64,000 nucleotides of DNA from Thermanaeromonas toyohensis ToBE (GTDB taxonomy: Bacteria > Bacillota > DSM-521 > Neomoorellales > Neomoorellaceae). Both the position numbers and the translations under genes were made by a program. The stretch is taken from the NCBI RefSeq assembly GCF_900176005.1, contig NZ_LT838272.1:1135587-1199586 (forward strand), read 5' to 3'. Positions within the stretch are counted from its first letter, which is position 1. Every line of letters begins with the position of its first letter. Shown here piece after piece: positions 4,052 through 6,215 of this stretch. The notes under the pieces were generated by a model. The model saw nothing but the letters and a program-made list of their open reading frames with translations. It was not told the origin of the DNA and did no database searches.

Positions 4052-4080
4052 TTGACAGCGAAAAAGGGCTATAGTATAAT
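4052..4080 (+). promoter_or_regulatory. Consensus sigma-A promoter for the selenoprotein-trx operon
   Basis: TTGACA (4052-4057), 17-nt spacer, TATAAT (4075-4080): a perfect -35/-10 pair. The selenoprotein start codon is 26 nt downstream of the -10. Confidence 0.9.
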
Positions 4081-4105
4081 CCTGCACAAAAGGAGGGATG
4101 AAAAA

Positions 4106-4390
4106 GTGGAAATAAGAATTTCCCCCAAGGCGGAGGAATACATCAAAGGGAAAACAAATGCTATAACTATTCGCTTGGAAATGTGTGGTAGTTGAGCTGG
4201 GCTTACTGTTAGACCTGCCGTGTTAGCAGGACCTCCCCGTGATCCCAGCGGTTACCTAGTACATCAGGTAGATGGATTACAGGTTTATATTCAAAAAGGG
4301 ATAAAAGCTACCAATCGAGGGCTCGATATAGATCTTATAGGATTTGGCCCCTTTAAACAACTAGTAGTGGATGGGATTTCCCTGCACTAG
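4106..4390 (+). CDS. HesB-like selenoprotein (CC/Se motif family), in-frame UGA = Sec30
   Basis: The frame starts at GTG 4106 behind AAAGGAGGG and would stop at TGA 4193-4195, but it stays open for another 64 codons to TAG 4388. Read with selenocysteine the product is 94 aa with the motif MCGSU-AGLTV, matching the known HesB-like/'CC/Se motif' selenoprotein family, which resembles A-type Fe-S carriers. A hairpin CCTGC-CGTGTTA-GCAGG begins 18 nt after the UGA with GU in its loop, as expected of a bacterial SECIS. It precedes trxA by 27 nt, so a thiol/selenol redox role is likely; the precise function is not known. A simple pseudogene is unlikely because both halves conserve the family pattern. 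Confidence 0.87.
4214..4230 (+). promoter_or_regulatory. Putative bacterial SECIS hairpin
   Basis: Stem CCTGC (4214-4218) / GCAGG (4226-4230), loop CGTGTTA, starting 18 nt after the UGA at 4193-4195. Bacterial SelB-binding SECIS elements lie in this distance range and carry G/U in the apical loop. Confidence 0.7.
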
Positions 4391-4417: not shown

Positions 4418-4744
4418 ATGGCTGGGCAGGTTATTAATGTAGATCAAGGGGATTTTGAAGCGGAGGTTCTTACAGCTCCTATACCTGTAGTAGTGGATTT
4501 CTGGGCCGCTTGGTGTGGTCCATGCCGGATGATGGCTCCTGTCTTAGAGCAGGTGGCTGCTGAATACGGTGGACGTATCAAGTTTGTAAAATTAAATGTA
4601 GATGAAAACCAGGAACTCGCGGCCCAGTATGGGATTATGAGTATCCCTACCCTAGTTATCTTTAAGGATGGCGAGGAAATAGGTCGTTTGATAGGGTACA
4701 TGCCTAAGGAGAAGTTAAAACAGAGCCTGGATTCCCTCCTTTAA
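4418..4744 (+). CDS. trxA: Thioredoxin
   Basis: Cytoplasmic dithiol-disulfide oxidoreductase. The 108-aa product is full length, with the active site WAAWCGPCRMM near residue 32, the cis-proline loop MSIPTL and the C-terminal GYMPKEKLKQ helix. AGGAGGTG lies in front of the ATG. It follows the HesB-like selenoprotein by 27 nt and is followed by a small ferredoxin, which suggests a redox operon. The reductase is not in the window. Confidence 0.96.
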   Translation: MAGQVINVDQGDFEAEVLTAPIPVVVDFWAAWCGPCRMMAPVLEQVAAEYGGRIKFVKLNVDENQELAAQYGIMSIPTLVIFKDGEEIGRLIGYMPKEKLKQSLDSLL

Positions 4745-4782: not shown

Positions 4783-4974
4783 ATGCAAAGACGGCAAGCA
4801 TATATAGATGCTTCCCGGTGTGATGGTGCCTCAGATTGTCCTCCACGGGACAATTGTCCTGCGGGGGCCATTTTCCGGGAAGGGGATGAGGGACCTTATT
4901 TTGTAGGTCCTGAATGCCGTGGCTGTGGCCGATGCATCTCTTTCTGTAATCTAAAGGCTATTACTTTGCTTTAG
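4783..4974 (+). CDS. Small ferredoxin-like 4Fe-4S protein
   Basis: A 63-aa protein with clustered cysteines: CDGASDCPPRDNCPAGA in the first half and CRGCGRCISFCNLKA in the second. The second is a clear C-x2-C-x2-C-x3-C 4Fe-4S pattern; the first is irregular. I place the start at ATG 4783, which has GGAGG 8 nt upstream; an ATG at 4744 overlaps the trxA stop but lacks a ribosome site. It probably passes electrons within the selenoprotein-thioredoxin operon, though its partner is unknown. Confidence 0.82.
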   Translation: MQRRQAYIDASRCDGASDCPPRDNCPAGAIFREGDEGPYFVGPECRGCGRCISFCNLKAITLL

Positions 4975-4995: not shown

Positions 4996-5040
4996 TTAGT
5001 GGGAGACCAGCTAGCTCCTCGTGGTTACGGGTGAAGGGAG
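4996..5040 (+). other. Possible structured RNA ahead of the terminator
   Basis: After the ferredoxin stop the transcript can fold GGGAG (about 5001-5005) with CTCCT and a small CGT-GGTT-ACG hairpin, just before the strong terminator at 5041. This could be a 3' UTR or a riboswitch-like element. A molybdenum/tungsten cofactor riboswitch came to mind because the next gene is molybdopterin-related, but I could not match its core. Confidence 0.25.
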
Positions 5041-5078
5041 AGCGGAGCTACCGGGAATTCCGGTGGCTCTGCTTTTTT
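5041..5078 (+). terminator. Rho-independent terminator of the trx operon
   Basis: A 14-bp stem (5041-5054 with 5060-5073, two G-U pairs), GAATT loop and T run to 5078. It isolates the selenoprotein-thioredoxin-ferredoxin operon from the next gene. Confidence 0.93.
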
Positions 5079-5123
5079 GGTTAAAGCTGTTTTCCCGAGT
5101 GATAAATTTTACTTAATTGGAGA

Positions 5124-5168: not shown

Positions 5169-6215
5169 GTGACTTTGAAAAAGATTAAGGTAGAGGATAG
5201 TATAGGGTATGTTTTAGCCCATGATCTAACTAAAATAGTGCCTGGTGAGTTTAAAGGGTGCCGCTTTAAAAAAGGGCATATTATTCAGGAAGAAGATATT
5301 CCAGAACTATTGAATATGGGTAAAGAGCATATCTACGTACTGGAACTTAGCCCCCAAGACGTGCACGAAGATGAAGCAGCCTTAAGATTAGCTAGGGCAG
5401 CTGTGGGGTGGGAGAATACAGGGCTTAAGATAGGGGAACCTTCTGAAGGCCGGGTCAATGTAGTTGCTGAGTATCCTGGGCTTCTTAAGGTCAATCTCTC
5501 AGCCCTTAAGGCGATTAACCAGATTCCCGATGTCATTTTAGCTACCTTGCATAACAATTATCCTGTTCAAGGAGGACAAGTGGTAGCAGGTACCCGGGTT
5601 ATCCCTTTGGTCACGAAGGAGGAATATGTGGCCAGGGCTGAAGATATTTGTCGGGCAGCAGGGGGGATTTTAAAGATAGCTCCTTATCGACGCCTCCGGG
5701 TAGGTGTGGTTACTACGGGAAACGAAGTATATAAGGGCCGGATAAAGGATGCCTTTGGGCCAGTAGTCAAGGCTAAAATTGTCCAATACGGGTGCCAAGT
5801 AGAAGAGGAGAAAATAGTACCGGATGATGCTGTAATTATAAGCCAAGCTATTAGAGAGATGGTGGACCGGGGACTTGAACTCATACTCATTACTGGTGGG
5901 ATGTCAGTAGACCCTGATGATGTAACCCCGCTAGGTATACGTTTAACAGGGGCTGAAGTAATTGCCTATGGTGCACCTGTATTGCCTGGGGCTATGTTTA
6001 TGCTGGCCTACCTTGAAAGTGTCCCTTTAATGGGTTTGCCTGCCTGTGTCATGTATTACCGGGCTACTATTTTTGATTTAGTCTTGCCCCGTATTTTAGC
6101 TGGAGAACGGCTCACTCAAGCAGACATAGCGGATCTCGCTGCGGGTGGGCTTTGTCTTGGCTGCCAGGAATGCCGCTATCCGGTTTGTCCCTTCGGGAAG
6201 GGTGGGTTATCTTAA
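5169..6215 (+). CDS. Molybdopterin-binding domain protein (MoeA/MogA-like)
   Basis: The 348-aa protein contains a MoCF-binding domain in its second half: VVTTGNEVYKGRIKDAFGP, then ITGGMSVDPDDVTPLGI and LPGAMFMLAYLES, the fold that binds molybdopterin in MoeA and MogA. The N-terminal 150 residues (IGYVLAHDLTKIVPGEFKG) correspond to the MoeA N-region but are shorter than in true MoeA. The C-terminus ends in a cysteine-rich tail, CLGCQECRYPVCPFGKGG, which could bind a metal or Fe-S cluster. The start codon is TTG with GGGAGGGG upstream. A role in Mo/W cofactor handling fits an organism relying on formate dehydrogenase, but the reaction is not clear. Confidence 0.85.
   Translation: MTLKKIKVEDSIGYVLAHDLTKIVPGEFKGCRFKKGHIIQEEDIPELLNMGKEHIYVLELSPQDVHEDEAALRLARAAVGWENTGLKIGEPSEGRVNVVAEYPGLLKVNLSALKAINQIPDVILATLHNNYPVQGGQVVAGTRVIPLVTKEEYVARAEDICRAAGGILKIAPYRRLRVGVVTTGNEVYKGRIKDAFGPVVKAKIVQYGCQVEEEKIVPDDAVIISQAIREMVDRGLELILITGGMSVDPDDVTPLGIRLTGAEVIAYGAPVLPGAMFMLAYLESVPLMGLPACVMYYRATIFDLVLPRILAGERLTQADIADLAAGGLCLGCQECRYPVCPFGKGGLS

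Follow-up and report, generated by a model that had tools for sequence, protein, structure and literature searches.

The window, a 64,000-nucleotide stretch of the Thermanaeromonas toyohensis ToBE genome, contains a small selenoprotein gene (4106-4390, + strand) that encodes a 94-residue member of the CC/Se family with a predicted HesB-type fold. The frame runs from GTG 4106 to the TAG at 4388-4390 and contains a single in-frame TGA (4193-4195) followed by 64 sense codons; the joined product, VEIRISPKAEEYIKGKTNAITIRLEMCGSUAGLTVRPAV...ISLH, carries the motif MCGSU. It is preceded by a putative ribosome binding site (AAGGAGGG, 4090-4097, +) and by a sigma-70-type promoter, TTGACA-17-TATAAT (4052-4080, +), that matches the consensus at 12 of 12 positions; by chance alone, 1.9 sites of weaker match would be expected in this region.

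Two further genes follow on the same strand. The first, 27 nt downstream, encodes a 108-residue thioredoxin (4418-4744, +; TIGR01068, 133.6 bits versus a cut-off of 96.8; PF00085) with WCGPC in its translation. The second encodes a small ferredoxin-like protein (4783-4974, +) with weak 4Fe-4S dicluster matches that fall below the cut-off; homologues are similarly placed at eight other loci, and it is these homologues that set the start at 4783, the reading frame being open from 4744. The unit ends at a terminator-like hairpin with a T run (5036-5079, +; −31.4 kcal/mol, z −7.26), which was not picked up by the pattern scan used for the promoter. Promoter and strong terminator-like hairpin bracket the selenoprotein, thioredoxin and ferredoxin-like genes, which form one operon. 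The initial annotation had read the same frame, with its sole TGA and MCGSU motif, and had placed the three genes behind one consensus promoter, and on each of these points it was borne out. The gene past the terminator-like hairpin (5169-6215) encodes a molybdopterin-binding domain (PF00994), and many relatives have its homologue at the corresponding position.

Family membership and reading of the UGA codon

The 94-residue product matches NF041239, the 'CC/Se motif family (seleno)protein' model, with 97.7 bits (cut-off 40), residues 1-90 lying on positions 1-90 of 91 and U30 aligning with the Sec or Cys of relatives at the motif position. No Pfam family matched the product, PF01521 included, and TIGR01911 (cut-off 66.35 bits) gave no match to it at E 0.001 and none in its own genome; hence, of the HesB and CC/Se models against which the initial annotation had suggested searching, the second answered and TIGR01911 did not. 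The gene product is a new member of an already known family. A 2026 review (PMC13188914) gives NF041239 as a CxxU selenoprotein, a 'hypothetical protein predicted in Moorella thermoacetica', and this one table entry is the only place where the family was met in our literature searches. The closest named relative comes from a Thermanaeromonas metagenome-assembled genome (88% identity). Of 18 genomes from the taxonomic family of T. toyohensis, 16 carry the gene, with one in-frame TGA in every main copy, and across a sample of the phylum a match was found in 89 of 398 genomes. By hand count, selA occurs in 70 of the 73 genomes with an above-cut-off match of the TGA form versus 272 of 398 overall. 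Two genomes of the same family also have a second copy (L046:3326-3592 and L047:3444-3707), in which the motif (VGTAGG and IGTAGG) lacks both Sec and Cys.

The UGA codon (4193-4195, +), putatively read as Sec30, has Sec or Cys opposite it in almost every aligned relative, and the genome contains selA, selB, selD and selC, the last as a tRNA-Sec scoring 71.4 bits. The absence of these genes, or homologues that all stop ahead of the UGA, had been named beforehand as grounds for giving up the selenoprotein assignment, and neither was found. The gene is a real small selenoprotein gene, in which Sec insertion itself is predicted from the sequence. In the standard code one reading frame closes at 4195 and another opens at 4220, as would be the case if UGA 4193 were a plain stop and the downstream frame either a remnant or an independent short gene from GTG 4220. 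We consider this very improbable in view of the exchange of Sec and Cys at this codon across many families, the unbroken protein family that spans it, the complete set of sel genes and the covariation of the SECIS hairpin described below. UAA and UAG were also considered as Sec codons for copies in one genome (G388) that are listed with TAA or TAG, and were rejected: the aligned stretch is free of stops and has Cys at the Sec site, so that the stops lie outside it. The selD gene of T. toyohensis (G000:C1:2435711-2436643, L134) has an in-frame TGA of its own and is probably itself a selenoprotein gene.

The apical hairpin CCUGC-CGUGUUA-GCAGG (CCTGC-CGTGTTA-GCAGG in the DNA; 4214-4230, +) starts 18 nt past the UGA and has GU in its loop, as originally described. 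It can be extended to a larger fold (4196-4249, +) with an outer helix, GCUGGG/CCCAGC, directly after the UGA, which at −22.5 kcal/mol is only weakly better than shuffled sequences (z −1.94; z 0.44 for a 45-nt piece). In the single window sequence the hairpin is weak evidence, because the codons for PAV..AG yield the stem in about 30% of synonymous shuffles. A plain comparison of Sec with Cys members (hairpin in 61 of 72 versus 1 of 15) is confounded by residue differences, and synonymous-shuffle and covariation tests were therefore used. When each of 72 Sec relatives was compared with its own synonymous shuffles, a perfect stem was seen in 61, versus 23.1 expected. Sixty Sec relatives could be aligned in a single register without gaps; among them, 98% of the apical-stem cells are paired, both sides vary in four of the five pairs, and the covariation score lies above all 500 shuffles. 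The covariation and the excess of perfect stems in relatives mark the hairpin as SECIS-type. Rfam RF00031 gave no match here, but also none in any control genome, and is therefore uninformative.

The stem also leaves its mark on the protein. Behind the Pro at +7, the residues at +8 and +11 after Sec are Ala/Ala in 37 of the 60 Sec relatives, Thr/Val in 15 and Ala/Val in 6, and never Thr/Ala. These pairs are restricted because the stem demands G-C, A-U or G-U pairing, which Ala/Ala or Thr/Val maintains; the RNA element thus shapes the protein that it encodes. One Cys copy (L042:5705-5959, TGC) is nevertheless followed by a hairpin, CCTGT-CGTGTTT-GTAGG, which looks like a relic SECIS left after a change from Sec to Cys.

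Predicted fold and the residues around Sec30

An AlphaFold2 model (60 relatives) has a pLDDT of 93.9 and a pTM of 0.84, and its leading matches in a fold search of the PDB are IscA and SufA (VIA Z 8.6, rmsd 3.1 over 87 residues to 1x0g_C), whereas a search of the PDB by sequence found no relatives. Profile comparison relates the family to the HesB-like selenoproteins (97.5%, E 7.8e-12), with Sec aligned on Sec, and to the A-type proteins (70.8%, E 3.8e-5), with Sec on the cysteine of GGC. The term 'HesB-like' in the initial annotation is thus right as regards predicted fold and distant homology, while the family is NF041239 and not that of the TIGR01911 (UxGP) HesB-like selenoproteins: the product has UAGL in place of UxGP, most of the relatives having U[GSR]GP. 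The three-ligand set of A-type proteins is not present, since Sec stands at the position of the first Cys and no Cys follows Sec30, so that the C-terminal CGC is absent.

Within the matched stretch, to which the counts are restricted, a single further Cys is the rule in Sec members, and it lies in the same turn as the Sec. Among 72 Sec members the only other Cys is at −3 in 26, as in T. toyohensis, at +1 in 16, at +3 in 8 and at −1 or +4 in a few, and 11 have no second Cys in that stretch. The retention of one extra thiol in the turn, at a position that shifts between members, suggests that the two residues may work as a pair, through either an internal bond or a shared ligand.

A sister clade has two adjacent UGA codons at this site. 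It was first seen as weak double-TGA matches in the phylum sample and comprises 11 loci (L164-L173 and L176) from four families and 10 genomes; both TGAs are present at every locus (for example L167:1501-1785, +), and most have the motif GUUNAFYAPSG. Profile comparison shows it to be homologous to the CC/Se family (99.0%, E 8.6e-18). The hairpin after its UGA-UGA has 6 pairs, each of them formed in all 9 distinct rows of the alignment, and a loop that is often AGGUCU; its covariation is modest, the score being reached by 19 of 500 shuffles. The upstream gene was tested for and found to be an aldehyde ferredoxin oxidoreductase at four loci (L165, L167, L170 and L176) and is asparaginase-like at L172, and the gene downstream at L167 encodes an [FeFe]-hydrogenase-type protein. 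No adjacent Sec-Sec motif appears in the available portion of the table in PMC13188914 or in our literature searches, which leaves its novelty unproven. Neighbouring selenocysteines of this kind would, if confirmed, be unusual.

Gene neighbours, proposed mechanism and known systems

In the T. toyohensis taxonomic family, the selenoprotein gene is directly followed by a thioredoxin gene at 15 loci. Elsewhere, family genes lie beside a thioredoxin-like protein and CcdA (f43), a thioredoxin-thioredoxin reductase fusion (f49) or a CoA-disulphide-reductase-like protein with rhodanese (f48). Thioredoxin or disulphide reductases thus recur beside the CC/Se family in other lineages, though not everywhere. 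No single neighbour dominates outside f1 and none is universal, HTH_3 regulators being the commonest. The ferredoxin-like gene occurs at nine loci within the T. toyohensis family; outside that family the matches were weak, the best being a small protein directly upstream in f34. Of the selenol-thioredoxin-Fe-S unit proposed initially, the thioredoxin link therefore holds in other lineages, and the three-part unit is not general because the ferredoxin link is essentially limited to this taxonomic family and one weak match beyond it. In f38 and f92 (L039, L081-L084 and L089) the gene is followed by an opposite-strand XRE regulator and then, in most, by a thioredoxin and an ABC transporter of zinc/manganese type as read by eye. 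Some Cys or distant members (L117, L105, L045 and L042) lie amid arsenic genes that encode ACR3 (at L117, with an SBF-family homologue at L045), an ArsC-type LMWPc (phosphatase-fold) protein, an ArsR-like protein and ArsA.

We favour a mechanism in which a selenol-thiol pair on a HesB scaffold is recycled by thioredoxin, and give it about an even chance. Sec-tRNA-Sec would be brought in by SelB bound to the hairpin that closely follows UGA 4193, and Sec would be placed in a beta-hairpin turn of the HesB/IscA-type fold, at what sequence and predicted fold indicate is the conserved first cysteine of A-type proteins. Sec30 and one neighbouring thiol, here Cys27 in CxxU, would form a reactive pair that is oxidised, or loaded, by the substrate and that the thioredoxin of the operon could then reduce again; turnover would consist of either the reduction of a small oxidant or the release of a soft metal or metalloid. 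The single nearby Cys that is usual in Sec members argues for such a pair, as does the sister clade, where +1 is also Sec, and the thioredoxin in the same operon, its recurrence in the taxonomic family and the f43, f49 and f48 neighbours agree with the proposed partner. Against it, 11 of the 72 Sec members lack a second Cys within the matched stretch, many members have no thioredoxin nearby, and the thioredoxin of f38 and f92 is outside the operon, behind an oppositely oriented regulator.

The arsenic clusters around Cys and distant members also speak against the selenol-thiol mechanism and point to a metal or metalloid role. In the main rival explanation, which we rate as clearly less probable though not exclusive of the first, a soft ion such as iron, arsenic(III) or another would be held by Sec30 and Cys27, which might belong to different subunits of a dimer. 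Thioredoxin would merely keep the ligands reduced, and the protein could stand in for IscA in this anaerobe. The HesB fold, the location of Sec at the A-type Cys position and the lack of a PF01521 match in the genome are all consistent with such a carrier, as are the ACR3, ArsC-type, ArsR and ArsA genes of the arsenic clusters. However, these clusters belong to Cys and distant members and not to the 4106-4390 operon, the C-terminal CGC ligands are missing, and a second ligand is absent from the matched stretch of some members.

Other neighbours would fit a protein that serves selenoenzymes or selenium metabolism instead of thioredoxin, such as one carrying selenium or electrons to glycine reductase and other anaerobic oxidoreductases. 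Glycine reductase component C genes lie next to the gene in f22, as does an Fe-S electron-transfer subunit of an oxidoreductase at L103, and the UGA-UGA clade adjoins aldehyde ferredoxin oxidoreductase; but such neighbours are lineage-specific, those in f22 are on the opposite strand behind a regulator, and Cys forms exist, and we regard this explanation as improbable. A broader and rather speculative generalization is that CC/Se proteins might be HesB-fold carriers of anaerobes that lack IscA-type proteins. They would bear a movable chalcogen pair in one turn (CxxU, UC, UxxC, CC and, in the sister clade, UU), recharged by thioredoxin or other disulphide reductases, and the role of this pair would be to bind, or to reduce, a soft metal or metalloid.

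Among known proteins, DsrR (2k4z), which we take to be a dsr-locus protein without the A-type cysteines, shares the HesB-type fold (VIA Z 7.5) at 8% identity. IscA and SufA (PF01521) share the predicted fold and have their first conserved Cys where Sec is found here, but differ in the C-terminal CGC and in the PF01521 match that the product lacks, with 14% identity in the structural alignment. IscA has also been linked to the thioredoxin system (PMC12683245). The HesB-like selenoproteins of TIGR01911 are homologous by profile and agree in Sec position and kind of fold, whereas the 94-residue product falls outside their model, departs from UxGP and has an extra Cys three residues before Sec. 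From the NF041239 family nothing defining separates it: the match is full-length and above cut-off, with one Sec at the expected place and CxxU. New for this family are the HesB fold, the Sec position common to it and the HesB-like selenoproteins, the analysis of the thioredoxin operon and the RNA covariation, and the co-transcribed thioredoxin provides a concrete candidate partner for its protein.
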